From NCBI RefSeq assembly GCF_023028225.1, contig NZ_CP095482.1, positions 2,604,001 to 2,668,000 on the forward strand: a DNA stretch of 64,000 bases. The letters run 5' to 3'. Shown one piece after another: positions 46,474 through 56,935 of the stretch (positions are counted from its first letter, which is position 1; each line of letters starts with the position of its first letter). The notes below the pieces were generated by a model that made no database searches, had not been told where the DNA came from, and was given only the letters and a program-made list of their open reading frames with translations. Origin of the DNA: Halorientalis litorea (lineage in GTDB: Archaea; Halobacteriota; Halobacteria; Halobacteriales; Haloarculaceae). Both the position numbers and the translations under genes were made by a program.

Positions 46474-47217
46474 CTATCCGCCGAGGTACGACTCCCGGAT
46501 GTAGTCGTCGTCTCTGAGTTCCTCGGGCGGTCCCTCCCGGACGATTTCACCGTTCTCCAGCAGGTGAATTCGGTCGGCGTGGTTCATCGCGAAGGTGACG
46601 TTCTGCTCACAGAGCAGGACGGTCACGCCGGCCTCCTGTATCTGGTCGATGCCCTCGCTGATGTCCTGCAGGATGACCGGCGCGAGGCCGAGCGTCGGTT
46701 CGTCCAGTACCAGCAGGTCGGGGTCACCCATCAGCGCGCGCCCGATGGCGAGCATCTGCTGTTCGCCGCCGCTCATCGTGTTGGCGTGCTGGCTCTTGCG
46801 CTCTTCGAGCGTCGGGAACAGGTCGTAGACGAACGCCTTGCGTTCGGCCACGTCGCCCCGACGGTAGGCCCCCAATTCGAGGTTGTCCGCCACGTCCATG
46901 AATCCGAACAGGTCCCGGGACTCGGTGCAGTGGATGAGGCCCTGACTCACCAAGTCGTCCGGGTTCTGTCCCGCGACTTCCGCCCCGCGGAACTCGACGG
47001 ACCCGTCGTACTCCTTGAACCCCGAGATGGTGTTCGCGAGCGTCGACTTGCCCGCACCGTTCGGGCCGATGACCGAGATAATCTCGCCCTCGGTCACGGT
47101 GAGGTCGACGCCACGGAGTGCCTGTACCTTCCCGTAGGACACTTGCAAGTCCGAGACGGTGACGACACTCTCGCGTCCCGTCTCCGTGACTGCCGCCGTG
47201 TCCGCGTCCGAACTCAT
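46474..47217 (-). CDS. livF: Liv-type ABC transporter ATPase
   Basis: A 247-residue ABC ATPase of the LivF group. Walker A is GPNGAGKST (about residue 52), the signature is MSGGEQQMLAIGRAL, Walker B is LLVLDEPTLGLAPVI and the switch is LLCEQNV. The lack of the LivG N- and C-terminal extensions and the EQN (not DHN) switch distinguish it. It is the last gene of livJ-H-M-G-F and overlaps livG by 4 nt. Confidence 0.9.
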   Translation of the reverse strand: MSSDADTAAVTETGRESVVTVSDLQVSYGKVQALRGVDLTVTEGEIISVIGPNGAGKSTLANTISGFKEYDGSVEFRGAEVAGQNPDDLVSQGLIHCTESRDLFGFMDVADNLELGAYRRGDVAERKAFVYDLFPTLEERKSQHANTMSGGEQQMLAIGRALMGDPDLLVLDEPTLGLAPVILQDISEGIDQIQEAGVTVLLCEQNVTFAMNHADRIHLLENGEIVREGPPEELRDDDYIRESYLGG

Positions 47218-48008
47218 ATCTCGTCACCCCCGAGGTACGCCTCCTGCACGTCGGGGTTGTTCTTTATCTCCTCGGGCGTGCCCTCCGCCAGCAGCGACCC
47301 GAAGTTGATGACGATGGCGCGGTCGATGAGTTCGAGTAGGCCCCGCATGTTGTGGTCGACGACGACCAGCGTCAGCCCCTCCTCGCGGAGTTCGAGCAAC
47401 AGGTCGGAGACGCTCTCGACTTCCGGGCCGGACAACCCGGCGAACGGCTCGTCGACCAGCAGCAGGTCGGGGTCCGAGGCGAGTGCCCGACCGAGTTCCA
47501 GACGGAGCAACCCTGCGTGAGGCAGTTCGTCGGGCATCATCTCGGTCCGGTCGCCGAGACCGACCCGCTCGCAAATCTGTATCGCCCGGCGTTTCGTCTC
47601 GCCGCGCAGCCCCTGCATCGAGAACAACTTGTCGGGCGTCAGCGCGAGCGCGACGTTCTTGACGACGGTCCGGTCCTCCAACGGACGGAACTCCTGGAAC
47701 GTCCGGGCCAGCCCCTTCTTGACCATCGCGTGGGAGGCCGTCCCGGTGACGTCCTCGCCGCGGTAGTAAATCGTCCCCTCTGTCGGGGGGAACCGGCCGG
47801 TGACGCAGTTGAACGTCGTGGACTTGCCCGCGCCGTTCGGGCCGATGAACCCGAGTATCTCGTTCTCCTCGACGGCGAACGAGAGGTCCTGCACGGCCGT
47901 CAGGCCGCCGAACCGCTTCGTCACTTCGTCCAGCACGAGGACGCCGTCCTCGGGGCCGAACGCCCTGTCCGTCGCCGCGTCGTCGGCTGTGTCTGTCTCA
48001 GCGCTCAT
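47214..48008 (-). CDS. livG: Liv-type ABC transporter ATPase
   Basis: A 264-residue ABC ATPase of the LivG group: Walker A GPNGAGKST, FNCVTGRFPPTEG, RTFQEFRPLEDRTVVKNVAL (Q-loop region), LPHAGLLRLELGRALASDP in place of a canonical LSGGQ, Walker B LLLVDEPFAGL and the LivG-type switch VVVDHNM. The signature motif is diverged (PHAGLLRLE). It overlaps livM by 11 nt and livF by 4 nt. Confidence 0.88.
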   Translation of the reverse strand: MSAETDTADDAATDRAFGPEDGVLVLDEVTKRFGGLTAVQDLSFAVEENEILGFIGPNGAGKSTTFNCVTGRFPPTEGTIYYRGEDVTGTASHAMVKKGLARTFQEFRPLEDRTVVKNVALALTPDKLFSMQGLRGETKRRAIQICERVGLGDRTEMMPDELPHAGLLRLELGRALASDPDLLLVDEPFAGLSGPEVESVSDLLLELREEGLTLVVVDHNMRGLLELIDRAIVINFGSLLAEGTPEEIKNNPDVQEAYLGGDEI

Positions 48009-49137
48009 CGTCGTTCCTCCCGGTTAGCTCGCGTAGTTGCTCGGTGTAGTTCTCGTAGACCTGCACCAGCGGCGTCGTCCCGCCGTCGGCCGCTACCTCC
48101 TTCCCCGTCGTTCGCTCGACCACTCTGCCGCCGATGCCCACCGCCCAGCGGACGATGCCGCCGGGGAGGATGAACAGCAACGCCAGCGTGATGAGCGCGA
48201 ACACGAGGAAGTTGATTTCCGACACCGGCGTGTTCAATACCGGAATGACGACATCGAGGCCGATGAGTTGCTCTGCGAGCAGACTCAACAGCAGGCCGCC
48301 GATTGCCGCCCCGACGATGGTCCCCATCCCGCCGAGGATGGCGGCGATGATGACCTCGACGTTGATGATGATGGACATCAGCACGTCCGGGCTGACGGAG
48401 GCCCGCGGCGTGTGGACGAACATGGCACCGCCGAGGCCGCCCACGGCCGCGCTGAGGACGAACGCCATAATCTTGAACTTCGCGGGGTTGAGTCCCGCGG
48501 CAGAGACGGCGTCCTCGTCCTCGCGGATGGCCGTGAACACCGCTCCGGCGTCCGACCGGGTGAGGGCCAGCAGGCCGAAGAGGATGACCGCGAACAGGAC
48601 GAACGCGATGTAGTACACCGCGTAGGCGTCCCCGAGGCCGAACCCGAGGAAGTTGTCGGGATTGCCGAGGCCGAGTTCACCGCCGAAGATGTCGCTCCGG
48701 ACGATGAATATCTGGGTCAGTATCAGCGGCGCGACCAGCGTCACCAGCGACAGGTACGGTCCCCGCAGTCTGAGCGCGGGGACGCCGATGATGACGCCGG
48801 CGATGGCCGCGAGGACGACGCCGAGGGGAATCGACAGCACGGGGTCGAGGCCGTGCCCCATGTTCAACAGTGCAGACGTGTAGCCGCCCACGGCGAAGAA
48901 CACGCCGTGACCGAAGCTAATCTGTCCCGTGTAACCCGAGACCACGTCCCAAGACATGGTGAATATCGCGAAGTAGAACGCGCTCACCATCACGAACGCG
49001 TTGATGGGGCTCAACACCGTCGGGAGGACTGCCAGACCGAGCAGTCCGACGATACCGAGTTTGTGCCGCAGTGCCATGTTCCGCGGGTTCAACAGGGAAC
49101 GCAGGGTGTCGTCGGATGTGGATGTATCGTCACTCAT
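47998..49137 (-). CDS. livM: Liv-type ABC transporter permease
   Basis: A 379-residue permease with about ten helices. Landmarks are SWDVVSGYTGQISFGHGVFFAVGGYTSALL (residues about 63-92), PALRLRGPYLSLVTL, and GGLGGAMFVHTPRASVSP, then GGMGTIVGAAIGGLLL near the EAA-like coupling loop. The short hydrophilic C-terminus is acidic. It pairs with LivH, whose gene ends 4 nt upstream. Confidence 0.9.
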   Translation of the reverse strand: MSDDTSTSDDTLRSLLNPRNMALRHKLGIVGLLGLAVLPTVLSPINAFVMVSAFYFAIFTMSWDVVSGYTGQISFGHGVFFAVGGYTSALLNMGHGLDPVLSIPLGVVLAAIAGVIIGVPALRLRGPYLSLVTLVAPLILTQIFIVRSDIFGGELGLGNPDNFLGFGLGDAYAVYYIAFVLFAVILFGLLALTRSDAGAVFTAIREDEDAVSAAGLNPAKFKIMAFVLSAAVGGLGGAMFVHTPRASVSPDVLMSIIINVEVIIAAILGGMGTIVGAAIGGLLLSLLAEQLIGLDVVIPVLNTPVSEINFLVFALITLALLFILPGGIVRWAVGIGGRVVERTTGKEVAADGGTTPLVQVYENYTEQLRELTGRNDDER

Positions 49138-49141
49138 GCTA

Positions 49142-50005
49142 TCACTCCGCCAGCTCCCGGCCGAAGAGGCCTTCGGGTTTCACCAGTAGCACCACTATCA
49201 GTACGACCAACGGCATCAACCCCTGTAACTGCGGGTCGACGACGCTCAACACCGTCACTTCGAGCGTTCCGATGAGGTACGCGCCGACGACGCTCCCTTT
49301 GATGGAGCCGATGCCGCCCAGCACCACGATTGAGAACGACAGCACGAGCGGGTTGCGGCCCATGATGGGCGTCGCAGTCAGTTGCGACCCGAGGAACAGG
49401 CCAGCGACGCCGGCCAAACCGCCGGCGATGACCCACGTTCCGAGGTTGATGCGCCCGCTGTCGATGCCGACGAGGGCAGCACCCTTGTCGGACATGCTCG
49501 TCGCCATGATGGCCTTCCCCTGTCTCGTCCGGTTGATGAACAGGAACAGGCCGATGATGATGGCCCACGACAGCACGAACACCGCGATAGCGTTGTTGTT
49601 CACGCGCGTCCCTTGGATGATGGTGTTGCCGCTGACGAGGTTCGGTATCGCCTTCGACTGCGCGCCAGCGGTGTTGAGAAACAGCGTCTCGACGGCCACC
49701 GACACCACCAGCGTGAGTATCATCACCATTATCGGCTCGTGCTCGAACCGCTGTATCATCCCGAGGTACATGACGCCGCCGAACAGCGCGGGGACGACCA
49801 ACGCCGCCGCGAACCCGCCCGGCAGCCCTAACCCGAGGACGGAGATGGCGAACCACGCGCTGTAGGCACCGATAGCGATGCTCGCTCCGTGGGCGAGGTT
49901 CAGCACGCCACCGACCCCGAAGATGAGCGTGAAGCCGAGTGCGACGAGCGCGTAGAGCGCGCTCCGCATTACCGACTGGATGGCAATCTGTAGTATGTCT
50001 ACCAT
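49142..50005 (-). CDS. livH: Liv-type ABC transporter permease
   Basis: A 287-residue permease with about eight helices: MRSALYALVALGFTLIFGVGGVLNLAHGASIAIGAYSAW (residues about 13-50) is the typical LivH N-terminus, and VLGGIGSIKGSVVGAYLIGTLEV is the C-terminal conserved loop. It forms the membrane channel with LivM for branched-chain amino acids or related carboxylates. Confidence 0.9.
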   Translation of the reverse strand: MVDILQIAIQSVMRSALYALVALGFTLIFGVGGVLNLAHGASIAIGAYSAWFAISVLGLGLPGGFAAALVVPALFGGVMYLGMIQRFEHEPIMVMILTLVVSVAVETLFLNTAGAQSKAIPNLVSGNTIIQGTRVNNNAIAVFVLSWAIIIGLFLFINRTRQGKAIMATSMSDKGAALVGIDSGRINLGTWVIAGGLAGVAGLFLGSQLTATPIMGRNPLVLSFSIVVLGGIGSIKGSVVGAYLIGTLEVTVLSVVDPQLQGLMPLVVLIVVLLVKPEGLFGRELAE

Positions 50006-50028
50006 AGATGAGGTGGAGAGAGACTACG

Positions 50029-51408
50029 TTAGACCCACGGCGGTGCTTGGTAGTCGGCCGTCGCCAGGTCGTCGGGATAGATGACCTCCTGACTCCCGCT
50101 GCCGTCCTCGCCCTCCTGCCACTGCTGGAAGACCGGCCAGACGAGTCCCTCCTCGTATTTCACGTCGTGAGCGAACTCGTGGTCGGGACCGTAGTATTCG
50201 ATGGTCCCAGCGGTGCCGGTGTAGGAACTGCCCTCCAGTCCGGACACCACGTCGTCGGCCGCCTTCGACTCCTGTGCGGCGACGACGTTCGCGTACTGGT
50301 TGACCGCGTCGTAGGTGATGTAGCCCGTGTAGACCGGGAACTGGTCGAACTCCTCTTCGAAGGCGTTGGCGAACGGAACCGTGTTCTCCGTCACCTCGGC
50401 TGTCGGCGTCGCCGAGTTCTGGGTGACGCCGAACCGGCAGGCCCCGCCGGTCGCCTCGTAGTAGGACGGCAACTGCATCGGGACGTGGATGCCGCCGAAC
50501 TCGAAGGGTCGCTGCTGTTGTGCCCACTGGACGACGGCGGGCGTCCCGGTGTGTGCCATCGCGATGAACGCCGCGTCCGCCCCGGAACTCTCGACTTCGT
50601 CGTAAATCGGGCTGAAGTCCTCCGTCCCCGAAGCGTACCGGCGACTCATCGCGATGTCGATGCCGGTGTCTCCGAGTTGCTCGTTGAGGACGTCCGAAAC
50701 CGGTTCCGTCCACGCGTAGTCCTCGACCAGTACGGCCACGGACTCCCAACCGATGTCGTCGTTTTTCGCGTCCATGAAGTCGACGAGATTCTCGCCGAGG
50801 TGGTGGGCGTTGATGGGACCGGTCCGGAAGTGGTACTTGTACTGGTCGTAGCTCTCGTTGACCAGCGCGCTGGCCTCCGGCGTCGCCGCCCCGGCGGTCA
50901 TGTGGGGGATTTGCTGGTTGGCGATGTCGTCCATTATCGCGAGCAACACTTCGCTGGTGAAGACGCCAGTCGTCGCGTCGACTTGCTCTTCGAGTGCCAG
51001 CGTCTGGTACCGGTTCCGGCCGGTCTGTGGCGACTCCTCGGTGTTCTCGACGACCACCTCGACTTCCGCGTCGCCGATGCCCCCGTCGTCGTTGATGTGT
51101 TGTGCGGCCAACCGCGCCCCGTTGGCTATCGACGCGCCGATGGGGTTGTCCGACGGATTGGGTGCGAGCACGCCGATTTTGACGGTGTCACCGATGCCAC
51201 CACCGTCGCTGCCACCGTCGCCACCACCGTCGCCGTCGCCGCCACCACCGTCGCCTTGGTTGAGACAGCCCGCTAGCCCGAGGGCCGCCGCACTCGTCCC
51301 CGCCGCCTGTAGGAACCGTCGCCGGTCCACGATACCGCGCGTGACAGTATCTGACGCACCGTCACTGTATCCCTCACTATCTGCGGCCTGTTTACCATCG
51401 TTAACCAT
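50029..51408 (-). CDS. livJ: Liv-type substrate-binding lipoprotein (Tat-exported)
   Basis: A 459-residue periplasmic-binding-type protein. A twin-arginine motif (VDRRRFLQAAG, near residue 28) and lipobox LAGC (near 48) are followed by an acid/Gly-rich linker rich in GDGGG repeats, then the type I binding fold (VKIGVLAPNPSDNPIGASIANGARLAAQHIN). It is the first gene of the five-gene importer. The genes around it suggest branched or short acyl substrates as well as amino acids. A TATA box and palindrome lie just upstream. Confidence 0.88.
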   Translation of the reverse strand: MVNDGKQAADSEGYSDGASDTVTRGIVDRRRFLQAAGTSAAALGLAGCLNQGDGGGGDGDGGGDGGSDGGGIGDTVKIGVLAPNPSDNPIGASIANGARLAAQHINDDGGIGDAEVEVVVENTEESPQTGRNRYQTLALEEQVDATTGVFTSEVLLAIMDDIANQQIPHMTAGAATPEASALVNESYDQYKYHFRTGPINAHHLGENLVDFMDAKNDDIGWESVAVLVEDYAWTEPVSDVLNEQLGDTGIDIAMSRRYASGTEDFSPIYDEVESSGADAAFIAMAHTGTPAVVQWAQQQRPFEFGGIHVPMQLPSYYEATGGACRFGVTQNSATPTAEVTENTVPFANAFEEEFDQFPVYTGYITYDAVNQYANVVAAQESKAADDVVSGLEGSSYTGTAGTIEYYGPDHEFAHDVKYEEGLVWPVFQQWQEGEDGSGSQEVIYPDDLATADYQAPPWV

Positions 51409-51437
51409 GATACACCTCACCACAACGGAAAGGGGCC

Positions 51438-51447
51438 TAATAAATAT
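51438..51447 (-). promoter_or_regulatory. TATA box of the liv operon
   Basis: The minus-strand ATATTTATTA is centred about 35 nt before the ATG at 51408, predicting a leader of roughly 8 nt. Confidence 0.5.
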
Positions 51448-51452
51448 GGGTG

Positions 51453-51465
51453 CCGTTTGAAACGG
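51453..51465. promoter_or_regulatory. Palindromic operator candidate upstream of livJ
   Basis: CCGTTTGAAACGG is a perfect palindrome around a central G, 16 bp upstream of the TATA centre. Additional CCGTTT half-sites follow at 51470-51475 and, on the other side, ACGGAAA at 51425-51431. Confidence 0.5.
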
Positions 51466-51520
51466 TTTCTCCGTTTCTGTCGGCTAACTGTCCCGATTCG
51501 GCTGGTATCGGTCAGCGTGG

Positions 51521-52312
51521 TTAGTGGCCCTCGAACTCGGGGTCGCGGCTCTCCATGAACGCTGTCGCACCCTCCTCGTGGTCGCGTGTCGCGAACACCG
51601 GCCCCTGTGCCGCCGCCTCGTTGGTCATCGCTTGGTCGAGCGAACTCTCCAGTCCCTGCCTGATGAGTCGCTTCGAGGCTTTCAGTGCCACCGTCGGCCC
51701 GGTCGCGATGGTGTCGACGTACTCCTCGGCCCGTGCCTCGAACTCGTCGTCGTCGTACACCTTGGTGAACAGGCCGAGTTCACCCGCCGCCTCGGCGTCG
51801 AGCATCTCGCCGGTGAGCACGAGTTCTTTCGCCTTGTTCTCGCCGACGATGCGCGGGAGGAAATAGGACGTGCCGGTGTCGACGGTCAAGCCGACCTGTC
51901 GGAACCCGAAACTGATTCGGGAGGACGCACTCGCGACCTGCGTGTCACAGGCGATGGCGAGGTTCGCCCCCGCACCGAAGGCCGCCCCGTCTATTTTCGC
52001 CACCACTGGGAGCGGACACTCGTAGACGGCCCGGACCGCCTCGGAGGTGCCCATGACCGACTCGACCTTCTCGTGCGGCGGAACGTCCTCCTGTAGGCCT
52101 TCGAGCATCTTGTTGATGTCTCCGCCCGCACAGAACGCGCCGCCGGAGCCCTGAATCACGACACAGCGAGCGTCCGTGTCCTCGATACCGTCGAGTGCGT
52201 CCACGAGTCCGTCGGCGATGTCGCCCGTCAGTGCGTTCCGCACGTCCGGTTTGTTCAGCGTGACCGTTGCTGTTCCGTCCTCGATGTCGAGCAGTACGGC
52301 ATCGTCTGACAT
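51521..52312 (-). CDS. Enoyl-CoA hydratase/isomerase family protein
   Basis: A 263-residue crotonase. The oxyanion segments are GAFCAGGDINKM (about residue 62) and VAKIDGAAFGAGANLAIACD (about 105). The usual catalytic Glu near GLTVDTGTSYFLPRIVG is replaced by Asp/Thr-type residues, so hydratase chemistry is not certain; isomerase or hydrolase activity is possible. The C-terminus ATAFMESRDPEFEGH is typical. A CCTATATG TATA box lies near 52340-52347. Confidence 0.85.
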   Translation of the reverse strand: MSDDAVLLDIEDGTATVTLNKPDVRNALTGDIADGLVDALDGIEDTDARCVVIQGSGGAFCAGGDINKMLEGLQEDVPPHEKVESVMGTSEAVRAVYECPLPVVAKIDGAAFGAGANLAIACDTQVASASSRISFGFRQVGLTVDTGTSYFLPRIVGENKAKELVLTGEMLDAEAAGELGLFTKVYDDDEFEARAEEYVDTIATGPTVALKASKRLIRQGLESSLDQAMTNEAAAQGPVFATRDHEEGATAFMESRDPEFEGH

Positions 52313-52339
52313 ACTACGACACACGTCGGGACACCGCTT

Positions 52340-52347
52340 CATATAGG
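52340..52347 (-). promoter_or_regulatory. TATA box of the enoyl-CoA hydratase gene
   Basis: The minus-strand CCTATATG is centred about 31 nt before the ATG at 52312. Confidence 0.45.
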
Positions 52348-52407
52348 TTACCCATGCTGCTACCACTGGAACGTCAGGGTATCATCCAGCCTAACGTTGT
52401 AAAAATC

Positions 52408-53175
52408 TCACTTCGCGGTCCAGCCGCCGTCCACGGCGAGGACCGACCCAGTGACGTAGGAGGCGGCGTCGCTGGCGAGGAAGACGGCCGGTCCGGCGAT
52501 TTCTTCCGGGTCCGCGAACCGTTCGAGCGGCGTCCGGTCGAGCAGCGACTGTTTGATGGAGTCGTTCTCCAGCGCGCCTTCGATGAACTCCGTGGCGACG
52601 TACCCCGGTGCCACGGCGTTGACCCGCACGTCCGGTGCCCAGTCCAGTGCCATGCTCTTCGTGATGCCGACCAACCCGTGTTTCGTCGCCACGTACGGGT
52701 GCTGGCGCGGGAGACCGACGAGGCCGCCCACGCTGGCGACGTTGACGACGGTTCCCCCGTCGCTCTCCTGGAGCGACTCGGCGGCCGCCTGCGCGCAGGC
52801 GAACGCACCACGGAGGTTCACGTCGACGGTCAAATCGAGGCCGTCGAGGTCCACATCCTCCGGTTTCCCGAGTGCCCCGTCGGGATTGACGCCAGCGTTG
52901 TTGACCACCACGTCGACGCCGCCGAACGCGTCCTCGGCCGCCGCGATGAGCGACTCGACGCTCTCCGCGTCCGCCACGTCGACGGTGGCGGCGTGTGCTT
53001 CCCCGCCGTCCTCGCGGATGGACTCGACGACGCGCTCTACGTCCGCGGTAGTGCGCGACGCGGGGACGACGGACGCACCGGCCGCCGCCATTCCTTCGGC
53101 GATAGCGCGTCCGATTCCCCTGCTCCCGCCGGTGACGACTGCGACGCGGTCCGAGAGGTCGAACTGGTCCTGCAT
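52408..53175 (-). CDS. Short-chain dehydrogenase/reductase (3-oxoacyl reductase-like)
   Basis: A 255-residue SDR. The cofactor motif is VVTGGSRGIGRAIAEGM, the NNAG strand motif is VVVNNAGVNPDG, and the catalytic Ser (VVNVASVGGLVG) and Tyr-x3-Lys (HPYVATKHGLVG) are present. PGYVATEFIEGAL and SYVTGSVLAVDGGW complete the FabG-like pattern. It may reduce a 3-oxoacyl or hydroxy intermediate of the surrounding pathway. A CCCTTATGCC promoter element lies about 28 nt upstream. Confidence 0.88.
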   Translation of the reverse strand: MQDQFDLSDRVAVVTGGSRGIGRAIAEGMAAAGASVVPASRTTADVERVVESIREDGGEAHAATVDVADAESVESLIAAAEDAFGGVDVVVNNAGVNPDGALGKPEDVDLDGLDLTVDVNLRGAFACAQAAAESLQESDGGTVVNVASVGGLVGLPRQHPYVATKHGLVGITKSMALDWAPDVRVNAVAPGYVATEFIEGALENDSIKQSLLDRTPLERFADPEEIAGPAVFLASDAASYVTGSVLAVDGGWTAK

Positions 53176-53486
53176 GCCCCTCGCTGGGCGGGGCACCGGC
53201 ATAAGGGTGCGGGGCGGACCGAACCGCTGAAGAGCCACCCGTTGCTGTCTGGACACGGAGCCAAATCTCGCCGGCGACGACCCGGTGCTCGGCACCGAGC
53301 GGTGCATATGATTAAAGTGGCGGCTATACTAGGCGATATATTAATACCGCAGTGGTATATGATGGTTTATCGTGATGGGTGTTGGAGTGGTGGGGTACCA
53401 CACAGTAAGAGACGAGTCAGCGAGCGGCGTGGAACGACCACCGGTTCAGCTACTGGGTTCTGGGCACTTCGACTCGCACTGACCCA
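53176..53486. other. 311-nt intergenic region before DUF445
   Basis: The left part carries the SDR promoter. The middle is AT-rich: GCTATACTA near 53322-53330 and TATATTAATA at 53337-53346 are candidate TATA boxes for the plus strand. An open frame from ATG 53359 to TGA 53490 overlaps the DUF445 ATG, but its third positions are not GC-biased, so I do not call it a gene. Confidence 0.45.
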
Positions 53487-54830
53487 ATGATGGCACAGCT
53501 ATCCGGTTTCGGTCTCCAGTTCACCCTCGCGTCCGCCAGCGAGGTCACCAGCCTGCTCTCCGGCATCGACTGGAGTCTGGCGATGATACCCCTCATCTCG
53601 GGTATCATCGGGTACATCACCAACTGGGTCGGCATCAAGATGCTGTTCTACCCGATGTCGTTCTACGGCGTCCGGGTTCCCGGCCTCAAGAACCTCTCGC
53701 GGTTCCTCCCGAAGAAAATCCAGCAGATTCCCGGCGTCCTCCGCGGCAAGGTGGGCTGGCAGGGTATCATTCCTTCGCGGGCGGCGAAGATGGGGAGCAT
53801 CGCCGTCGACAAGGGCATCGCGAAACTCGGCAGCGAGCGCGAGTTCTACGAGGAGTTCGGCCGCGACAAACTCGCACAGCACGTTATCGCTACGGCCAAC
53901 GGTGAAATCCGGGAGATAACCGAAGCGGCCATCCGAGCCGAGTATCCCGCGCTGTGGGCCGCTGCCCCACAACAGGTCCGAGAGAACATCCTCGACCGGG
54001 TGCAGCAACAGATTCCGTTCGTCATCGAATCGGTGACCGACGAACTCGGCGAGAACATCACGGACATGCTCGACGTGAAGCTGATGGTCGTCGAACACAT
54101 TCGGGAGAACCCGGAACTCGTCAACCGGATTTTCCTCGAATGTGGCGACCGGGAACTGAAGTTCATCGTCAACTCGGGGTTCATGATCGGGACGCCGCTC
54201 GGGATGCTGACGATACCGCTGTTCGTCTACATCGACGCGTGGTGGGTCCTCCCGGTGGCTGGCGTCTTCGTGGGCTACACCACCAACTGGATTGCCCTCA
54301 AAGTCATCTTCAACCCGCTGTACGAACACAAAGTCGGCCCCTTCCGCATTCAGGGGCTGTTCATGAAGCGACAGGACGAAGTGTCGGAAACGTACGCCTC
54401 GATTATTGCCGAGGACATCATCACGATGGTCAACGTCGGCAAGAACGTCATGCACGGCCGGCAGGCGGACCGGACTCGGCTGATGATTCAACGGGCCATG
54501 CGTCCGGTCGTCGACGACGTGATGGGGGCGATGGCACCGGTCATCCGCGCCGCGGGTGGCACCGAGAGTTACCAGAACTTGCGCAAGACGGCCGCGGACG
54601 AGGGTGTCGGGTTCGCGATGGAGGCGTTGCACGACCCCGAATTCAGTGAGGCTCGGAGCGACGCGATTCGAGAGATGTTGTACGACCGAATGAAGGTGCT
54701 CAACGAAGCCGAGTACGCGGAGATGCTCCACACCGCCTTCGAGGAGGACGAGTGGTTGCTCATCCTCATCGGGGCTGTACTCGGATTCATCGCTGGCTGG
54801 CTCCAGTTGCTGCTGATAACCGCACTATGA
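53487..54830 (+). CDS. DUF445 membrane protein
   Basis: A 447-residue protein. One helix sits near residues 30-50 (MIPLLISGIIG-like, then YITNWVGIKMLFYPM), a second pair near 225-250 (IPLFVYIDAWWVLPVAGVFVGYTTNWIALKVIFNP) and one at the C-terminus (LLILIGAVLGFIAGWLQLLLI). The repeated YxTNWxxIKxxFxP motif at the two internal sites is the DUF445/YheB hallmark, and between them are long amphipathic helical stretches. Function is unknown. The stop overlaps the next ATG (ATGA), so the two products are made together. Confidence 0.85.
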   Translation: MMAQLSGFGLQFTLASASEVTSLLSGIDWSLAMIPLISGIIGYITNWVGIKMLFYPMSFYGVRVPGLKNLSRFLPKKIQQIPGVLRGKVGWQGIIPSRAAKMGSIAVDKGIAKLGSEREFYEEFGRDKLAQHVIATANGEIREITEAAIRAEYPALWAAAPQQVRENILDRVQQQIPFVIESVTDELGENITDMLDVKLMVVEHIRENPELVNRIFLECGDRELKFIVNSGFMIGTPLGMLTIPLFVYIDAWWVLPVAGVFVGYTTNWIALKVIFNPLYEHKVGPFRIQGLFMKRQDEVSETYASIIAEDIITMVNVGKNVMHGRQADRTRLMIQRAMRPVVDDVMGAMAPVIRAAGGTESYQNLRKTAADEGVGFAMEALHDPEFSEARSDAIREMLYDRMKVLNEAEYAEMLHTAFEEDEWLLILIGAVLGFIAGWLQLLLITAL

Positions 54831-56935
54831 CTGACAACGATCCATTCCAATGGGAACGGGGCGCGGCGGAGACAGACAACGAACCGTCCGACGCGGACGC
54901 ACCAGACAGCGACAGTGGACCGAGCGAGGCGGACGCGATAGACGGCGATGACGGACCGTTCGAATGGCCGCAGGCAGGAGCGGAGACGGACGACGGGCCG
55001 CGGAGCGGACTCGTCACGGACAGTGGACCGAGTGAGGCGACCGTTACGGACAGCGACGGTGGACTGGCCGGCGAGGTGGCTACGGACGGCCCGAGCGACG
55101 AGAGCGTGACGGACAGCGGCGACGGGCCGGTCGGCTGGATGCTGAAAGCAGTCGGGAGCGACGCCGGGCCGAGCGGTGTGGACGCGACAGCCGGTGGCGG
55201 GCCAATCGAGTGGGTGCGAAACGTAGTGGGAGTAGGCAGTGAACTGACCGAATCCGTGACAGGCGGAACGAACCACGCCGAGAGCGGCACGGACCCATCG
55301 GAGGCTGAAATCACCAGTCCGGTTCTCAACTCGAACGCCAGCAGGAACGGCGACAGTGGGGGCGAACTCACCGTCCCCGAAGTAGAACGGATGCGGTCGG
55401 TTATCGCCGGTGCCCGGGATAGTCCCACAGACATCGCCCCGACACCGACGGATGGTGGCGTGGTCGACCCCTTCGGCATCGGGCAACTGGGGGAGGACGT
55501 GGCGGACCTGTTCGTCCCGGGCGACTTCGGGGAGAGCGTGACGGCACTGTTTCTCCCCGGACAGTCGGGCGCGGGCGCGAGCGACGTGCCCAGAATCGCC
55601 CGCGTCGTCGCCGAATCGACGTGGCAGGTCTCGGACTACTCCATGCAGGCACAGATGCGCGCCTCCCGCCGGATAGCGGAAGCCGTGACCACCTCCCAGT
55701 CGCCGGACGAACTCCTCACGGAACTGCTCGATATCGCCGAGGCCGAAGTCGAACAGGCGGAGGCCGAACTCCAGCGGCAAGGCATCGACCTGTCCGACAT
55801 CCGCCAGACGACAGCGTACGATGACGGCGACAGCGACCACCACGCGGACACTGCGAGTGCCGGGGCGGACCCCCCTGCCGCGACGGATTCGATGCCCGAC
55901 TGGGTATCCAGTGACGGCGGGACTGCACGGGCGACCCCCGCGTCCACGGCGACCAACCCAGAGACGCCGCCGAGTCCCACGTCTCCCGCGACGAACCCGG
56001 ACACGCTGGCGACTCCTACCGCCACAGCGGCCGACCCGGACACGCCCGCGGCCCCACCCTCCACAGCCACTGACCCGGACGCGGTGGGCGGTCCCGGGCA
56101 ACGCTCGACGCTCGAAGGACTGGCCGAGAGCCTGCCCGACATCTCCACGTCGTGGATGCGAGAGGTGGCGTCCAGTGCCCCCCTCGTGTTCGGTGCGGTG
56201 CGGCGGGTCGCGGAGTACTCCGTCCAAGCACAGGCCCGCACCGCCCGCCGGTTGTGGCGCACCGCCACGAACGCCGACTCCCCGGACGCGTTGCTGGACG
56301 AGACGCTGAACGCCGCCATCGAAGAGGGGGAGCGACTGGGATTCGACATCGAGCAGGACATCTCCGACCGCATCGCTGGCCGACGCAGCGTCACGTCGGC
56401 GGACCCGGACGAGGCTGCGAGGCTGTTGAGCGAACGCGGCAGTCAGTTACTGCACCAGTCCGCCGATACGGAGGCCGAGGAAGAGATTCACCCGGCGTAC
56501 GCACACATTCTGAAGCAGGTCTCCGGCGACGAGGCCCGCATCCTCCGGCTACTCGCGACCGAGGGCAGACAGCCGGCAGTCGACGTGCGGAGCAAGGGGC
56601 TGGTGATGGGGTCGGAACTCGTCGCGGAAGGCCTGTCGATGATCGGCATCGAGGCCGGGTGTCAGAACCCGGACCGAACGTCGGTGTACCTCGACAACCT
56701 CGAACGACTCAGGCTCGTCCGTATCGCCGACGAACCGCTCGACAACCTCAAACGCTATCAGCTACTCGAAGCCCAACCCGACGTCGCGGAAGCCGAAGAG
56801 GAAGCCAACCGCGCGAGCATCGTCTACCGGAGTATTTGCCTGACGCCCCTCGGTGCCGACTTCTGTCGGGTGTGCTTTTCGGTCGACGCCGATGCGGAAC
56901 ACGTCGTGGGCGAAAAGCACAGCGACGGCGAGTGA
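54827..56935 (+). CDS. Large acidic protein with duplicated helical module and Abi-alpha (DUF4393)-like C-terminus
   Basis: A 702-residue protein. Residues 1-250 are low-complexity and acidic, with a recurring GP-x-x-W motif (DGPFEW, GPVGW, GPIEW). A helical module occurs twice, at about 255-327 and 439-510 (YSMQAQMRASRRIAEAV then SPDELL, against YSVQAQARTARRLWRTA then SPDALL). Between them is a Thr/Pro-rich linker with about four TATNPDTP-like repeats. Residues about 553-700 resemble DUF4393/Abi-alpha: HPAYAHILKQVSGDEARILRLL, a GCQN segment and a winged-helix-like end with LTPLGADFCRVCF. It is coupled to DUF445. No function is known for this architecture. Confidence 0.6.
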   Translation: MTDNDPFQWERGAAETDNEPSDADAPDSDSGPSEADAIDGDDGPFEWPQAGAETDDGPRSGLVTDSGPSEATVTDSDGGLAGEVATDGPSDESVTDSGDGPVGWMLKAVGSDAGPSGVDATAGGGPIEWVRNVVGVGSELTESVTGGTNHAESGTDPSEAEITSPVLNSNASRNGDSGGELTVPEVERMRSVIAGARDSPTDIAPTPTDGGVVDPFGIGQLGEDVADLFVPGDFGESVTALFLPGQSGAGASDVPRIARVVAESTWQVSDYSMQAQMRASRRIAEAVTTSQSPDELLTELLDIAEAEVEQAEAELQRQGIDLSDIRQTTAYDDGDSDHHADTASAGADPPAATDSMPDWVSSDGGTARATPASTATNPETPPSPTSPATNPDTLATPTATAADPDTPAAPPSTATDPDAVGGPGQRSTLEGLAESLPDISTSWMREVASSAPLVFGAVRRVAEYSVQAQARTARRLWRTATNADSPDALLDETLNAAIEEGERLGFDIEQDISDRIAGRRSVTSADPDEAARLLSERGSQLLHQSADTEAEEEIHPAYAHILKQVSGDEARILRLLATEGRQPAVDVRSKGLVMGSELVAEGLSMIGIEAGCQNPDRTSVYLDNLERLRLVRIADEPLDNLKRYQLLEAQPDVAEAEEEANRASIVYRSICLTPLGADFCRVCFSVDADAEHVVGEKHSDGE

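Follow-up and report, generated by a model that had tools for sequence, protein, structure and literature searches.

A 64,000-nucleotide stretch of the Halorientalis litorea chromosome (NZ_CP095482.1, positions 2,604,001 to 2,668,000; hereafter the window, meaning this whole stretch) contains two overlapping genes predicted to encode a DUF445 membrane protein of 446 amino acids (aa) and a 702-aa protein with a C-terminal Abi_alpha domain. The stop codon of the first and the ATG of the second share the letters ATGA, as a preliminary description made from the sequence had stated. The features of the locus, in coordinates of the window, are as follows.

53490..54830, + strand: DUF445 membrane protein, 446 aa; an in-frame ATG at 53487 is also possible (446-447 aa)
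54827..54830, + strand: ATGA overlap of the DUF445 stop and the Abi_alpha ATG
54827..56935, + strand: Abi_alpha-domain protein, 702 aa
54827..55366, + strand: N-terminal stretch, acidic and predicted to be disordered, in which GP-x-x-W occurs three times; peculiar to the window copy
55583..55813, + strand: helical-hairpin module, first (extra) copy, aa 253-329, from model and alignment
56147..56335, + strand: helical-hairpin module, second (family-wide) copy, aa 441-503, from model and alignment
56420..56875, + strand: Abi_alpha or winged-helix-like domain, aa 532-683; model confidence (pLDDT) mostly 88-98; match to PDB 3h35 (E 4e-7)

Architecture of the two proteins

The C-terminal domain (aa 532-683) of the larger protein matches PF14337 (Abi_alpha, also DUF4393) with 144 bits (cut-off 29) and an E value of 7e-42, which bears out the resemblance given in the preliminary description, and the same model matches all 52 members of the family alignment (A4). 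Its predicted structure resembles PDB 3h35, the uncharacterised protein ABO_0056 of Alcanivorax borkumensis, with which it has its fold in common (Foldseek E 4e-7, template-modelling score (TM) 0.64 by target length, 25% identity). MarR-type winged helices gave weak matches only. A search of a viral fold library returned nothing. The helical module reported to occur twice is a genuine internal duplication: aa 253-329 and 441-512 align with a BLOSUM62 score of 103, the best of 500 shuffles reaching 54, the duplicated module matches the family profile (2.9e-11), and both copies form helical hairpins in an AlphaFold2 (AF2) model. The second copy is the conserved one and the first is an extra found in the 702-aa protein. 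The preliminary description also spoke of a long acidic tail with recurring GP-x-x-W motifs; the acidity (20% D+E and 3% K+R over aa 1-250) and three motifs (aa 43, 100 and 125) are there, but the region is N-terminal, and the AF2 model leaves it largely disordered. Other haloarchaeal partners are 392-602 aa long and actinobacterial ones mostly 234-369 aa, and GP-x-x-W occurs in just one other homologue, as a single GPGNW (locus L055). The long N-terminus is peculiar to the window copy.

The DUF445 protein matches PF04286 in a profile search (E 2.3e-16, 61 bits against a cut-off of 33.8); a search of its own genome with PF04286 overlooked this gene, which the alignment A2 recovers. Four membrane-length helices, at about aa 28-53, 220-248, 253-274 and 421-445, are predicted from hydropathy and from the AF2 model, where the membrane helices flank two helical domains (pLDDT 85). 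These predicted helices support the earlier view of DUF445 as the membrane component. The motif IGYxTNWxxIxxLFxP occurs twice, the TNW motif region being repeated. Comparison of the fold with the PDB returned no significant match (TTYH, E 2e-3, TM about 0.2), and a literature search found no role for DUF445. One Natronomonas genome carries a second DUF445 copy (L198:8152-9192, contig G251:C36) that a stop interrupts and for which no Abi_alpha partner was found.

Conservation and distribution of the pair

Every one of the 34 adjacent haloarchaeal pairs has the overlap of exactly 4 nt (ATGA or GTGA), as do most actinobacterial pairs with both genes on one strand. H. litorea has a second pair elsewhere in its genome (paralogue L004), the DUF445 and Abi_alpha proteins of which are 55% and 45% identical to those of the window. 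In an even sample of 292 haloarchaeal genomes, where the DUF445 counted was the subfamily of the window protein, the two genes occurred in the identical 11 genomes (Fisher 4e-20; Fisher values here are inflated by the relatedness of the species compared). Abi_alpha was found in 33 of the 146 genomes that make up one whole haloarchaeal family (f1). In Halorientalis salina (G229) the pair is split onto two contigs and both genes are retained.

A scan of 85,000 species genomes located the pair in Rhodococcus, Nocardia, Tsukamurella, Haloechinothrix, Conexibacter and uncultured Actinobacteria. Among 297 Actinomycetes genomes, 20 had Abi_alpha, 22 had DUF445 and 18 had both, the two genes being adjacent by coordinates in all 18 (Fisher 5e-23). 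The two genomes with Abi_alpha alone (G503, G583) were without a DUF445 of the pair kind, and the adjacent actinomycete pairs include a remote DUF445 branch with reversed gene order (G390, G546, G432:C11). In a DUF445 tree one branch, weakly supported (39%), separates all haloarchaeal sequences from the actinobacterial ones. The two genes are co-inherited. The distances of one family correlate with those of the other (r 0.86 and 0.76 within groups). The pairing is real, conserved across two domains of life, far beyond chance and found in more than one lineage; the proposal of an undescribed two-gene system is supported. At several Nocardia loci (L202, L203, L113 and others) Abi_alpha genes flank DUF445 on both sides, one sharing its operon and the other running divergently.

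Association with wax-ester synthesis

Presence of the pair is strongly associated with neutral-lipid acyltransferases. Wax ester synthase/diacylglycerol acyltransferase (WS/DGAT, PF03007) was tabulated for the 146 genomes of family f1, leaving aside two f11 genomes, and was found in 32 of them, of which 31 belong to the 33 that carry Abi_alpha and one to the 113 that do not (table 31/2/1/112, p 3e-28). The sole positive genome lacking the pair is a 75%-complete metagenome-assembled genome. Counting strong matches alone gives a table of 25/8/1/112 (p 4e-20), and the pair and WS/DGAT co-vary inside the mixed genera Natronomonas, Halovenus and Halorientalis. The two PF03007-negative genomes with the pair, H. 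salina and H. litorea itself, carry a related acyltransferase; it is located beside DUF445 in the former, and the latter has it in the form of a tandem pair (L257). Judged by sequence, the Condensation/PapA-type acyltransferases of Halorientalis are candidate alternative wax synthases where a true WS/DGAT is missing. They were seen at L197:12409-13770, L257:2541-5254 and L220:6270-7583; those of H. litorea stand in tandem, and in H. salina a neighbouring gene is FcrA-like. Archaeal wax esters were first demonstrated in 2025; Natronomonas pharaonis makes wax-ester inclusions, whereas N. moolapensis, which has no WS/DGAT, makes none (PMC11948995). DUF445 goes unmentioned in the main text of that paper. 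Among Actinomycetes, WS/DGAT was present in 18 of 18 genomes with the pair, 39 of 60 without Abi_alpha (p 0.002) and neither of the two with Abi_alpha alone.

Gene order points the same way. A phasin-like gene lies directly upstream of 25 of the 34 haloarchaeal pairs, usually divergently, with genera differing in their other flanks, and in the split genome of H. salina it stays beside Abi_alpha. It encodes an acidic, amphipathic helical protein whose paralogues are the phaP genes of phaR-phaP-phaE-phaC clusters, including phaP-phaE-phaC of H. litorea (L185); this order was established in Haloferax mediterranei (PMC10948481). Its placement in the PhaP family leans on this synteny because the Pfam phasin model scores 20.2 bits, under its cut-off of 28.8, and apolipoprotein-type models score higher. 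Identification of this protein as ZorA, SMC, a gas-vesicle protein or another coiled-coil protein was rejected, these matches being sub-threshold and of a composition type.

Three Halovenus loci (L023, L054, L056) have, in this order, an HMG-CoA-reductase homologue, a phasin-like gene, DUF445, Abi_alpha and WS/DGAT, and several pair loci of this genus adjoin FcrA-like genes, WS/DGAT genes or both. Archaeal wax-ester synthesis uses FcrA as its fatty-acyl-CoA reductase, an enzyme marked by an N-terminal domain and by a Trp at position -4 from the catalytic His (PMC11948995). The Halovenus reductase homologue has these marks (domain PF25653 and WVTSH, Trp528/His532 in L023) and is likely, from its sequence, to be an FcrA. 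In H. salina the split-off DUF445 gene is near an FcrA-like gene, to which these marks likewise apply, and a Condensation-type acyltransferase gene. The row WS/DGAT, Abi_alpha, DUF445 is found in an actinomycete (L216; the WS/DGAT adjacency is also given as G432).

Possible functions of the pair

The pair is best explained, with a probability of about 0.55, as an accessory module of neutral-lipid (wax-ester-type) inclusions. Lipid bodies of prokaryotes are believed to originate at the cytoplasmic membrane. In the proposed scheme the two translationally coupled proteins would serve these inclusions together, DUF445 anchoring the pair in the cytoplasmic membrane and the Abi_alpha protein, with its helical hairpin and winged-helix domain, acting as its cytoplasmic partner. 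The latter may tie the nascent inclusion to DNA, like PhaM and MLDS, or may report the state of the inclusion to transcription, like PhaR and MLDSR, and in haloarchaea a dedicated phasin-like protein would coat the inclusion. We infer the physical complex, its membrane location, the DNA binding and the lipid-body role from the fold, the gene linkage and the distribution described above. The stronger proposal, that DUF445 and Abi_alpha form a dedicated machine which builds or controls neutral-lipid bodies at the prokaryotic membrane in Archaea and Actinobacteria alike, is put forward tentatively, at somewhat less than even odds.

Several observations weigh against a role in lipid inclusions. 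The window locus itself is flanked by short-chain dehydrogenase/reductase (SDR) and enoyl-CoA hydratase genes, without a phasin or wax synthase gene, and the phasin-linked copy in this genome is the paralogue L004. No FcrA was found in the approximately 47% of the H. litorea chromosome examined. The PF03007 matches of Halorientalis are weak, the two examined being Condensation/PapA-type enzymes rather than true WS/DGATs, and the record of such acyltransferases (PF00668) covers pair-bearing genomes. WS/DGAT is common in Actinomycetes regardless, so that the link is weaker there than in haloarchaea, and actinobacterial flanks are mixed, including heat-shock, steroid-catabolism and housekeeping genes. 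The tabulated species are kin, and the Fisher values overstate their independence. Homology of the Abi_alpha hairpin with phasins was rejected (hhalign probability 0.1). The distribution of PhaE, a subunit of polyhydroxyalkanoate (PHA) synthase, does not follow that of the pair, and PHA was rejected as the storage product on the same ground.

The mixed flanks could instead reflect a module that answers general stress on membranes or proteostasis and has no tie to lipid stores. In several Actinomycetes (L199-L210) the pair lies near or between dnaJ and clpB, others having it beside a ferredoxin-NADP-reductase-like gene, and an Hsp20-like gene adjoins it at one archaeal locus (L083). Such contexts are limited to part of one phylum and that single archaeal locus, and a stress role leaves the haloarchaeal co-occurrence with WS/DGAT and the linkage to phasin-like and FcrA-like genes unaccounted for; we consider it unlikely, though the most plausible of the alternatives. 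Another alternative is a transcription regulator that is linked to lipids, has a sensor in the membrane and governs the catabolism of fatty acids or steroids instead of inclusions. It would fit the winged-helix-like fold of the Abi_alpha domain and certain neighbours: KshA and other ring-degradation genes in a Rhodococcus closely related to R. erythropolis (L095), thiolase/FabG/MaoC-like genes (judged by eye) in Solirubrobacterales-type loci, and the enoyl-CoA hydratase and SDR genes near the pair, both in the window and in genomes of the Haloglomus type. The linkage to phasin-like and WS/DGAT genes favours storage over catabolism, however, and DNA binding is a prediction from the fold; we regard this role as improbable.

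Least probable of all is abortive-infection defence, a form of the anti-virus role that the preliminary description offered beside a stress role. In it Abi_alpha would detect infection, DUF445 would sense or execute membrane damage and the cell would die. The defence label stems from an Enterococcus faecalis prophage protein, the founder of the Abi_alpha family, which provokes premature lysis of phage-infected cells (PMC6356687), and from automated calls. The PADLOC profile PDC-S47 matches the window protein (E 1.8e-19), and DefenseFinder called an AbiAlpha in Rhodococcus erythropolis NI86/21 (PMC12915292). In the R. erythropolis genome that we searched, the single PF14337 gene adjoins a DUF445 gene; judged from this other genome, the NI86/21 AbiAlpha is probably the DUF445 partner and not a phage-defence gene. 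The pair is chromosomal, single-copy in most genomes and often syntenic among related species, and the near-perfect coupling of Abi_alpha to DUF445 and the tracking of lipid synthesis also speak against defence. The nearby defence genes looked for after the preliminary description did not appear: ten neighbours tested in the window held no defence gene or defence island, giving just generic ABC-ATPase matches. IMG/VR viral contigs yielded no Abi_alpha relative and one weak DUF445 fragment, and the only two phage matches were weak and distant. With the label traced to these sources and the R. erythropolis gene found beside DUF445, a neutral-lipid-inclusion module is therefore favoured. The pair more probably belongs to the cell's fat-storage apparatus than to virus defence because its distribution is near-identical to that of the archaea with wax-lipid machinery.

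Little is known about how bodies of wax ester and triacylglycerol arise at the membranes of prokaryotes, and a conserved pair that tracks the wax-ester trait provides named candidates for the membrane site and the regulator. If the inclusion role is correct, it would give this DUF445 subfamily its first function, and many AbiAlpha defence calls would be lipid-storage genes; automated calls of this kind may mislead in every case where DUF445 accompanies the gene.

Known systems offer partial parallels. The Abi-alpha of E. faecalis V583 prophage 6 (EF2833, DUF4393/PF14337) has the Abi_alpha domain in common with the window protein, but is a prophage-borne protein of 272 aa tested as an abortive-infection gene (PMC6356687), whereas proteins of the window type are chromosomal, DUF445-paired and, in haloarchaea, have long N-terminal regions. 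The haloarchaeal wax-ester pathway of WS/DGAT and FcrA (PMC11948995) occurs in the same genomes as the pair and, in Halovenus, at the same locus, but its components are enzymes. MLDS and MLDSR of Rhodococcus jostii, a DNA-binding lipid-droplet protein and a droplet-associated regulator, share the proposed link between neutral-lipid bodies and DNA or transcription; MLDSR has an XRE-type helix-turn-helix domain, and the available part of its description, from which the likeness is drawn rather than from sequence, does not mention a DUF445 partner (PMC5504291). PhaR, PhaP and PhaM of PHA granules are similar in combining DNA-binding granule proteins with a phasin. They differ in that DNA binding is of the AbrB type (haloarchaeal PhaR) or histone-like (PhaM), and PhaE is not tied to the pair. 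The PHA synthase PhaC of H. litorea (L185:1906-3282) has a C-terminal helix-hairpin-helix domain (PF14520). In the window, the opposite strand upstream of the pair (46474-53307) holds branched-chain amino-acid ABC transporter genes together with the enoyl-CoA hydratase and SDR genes.

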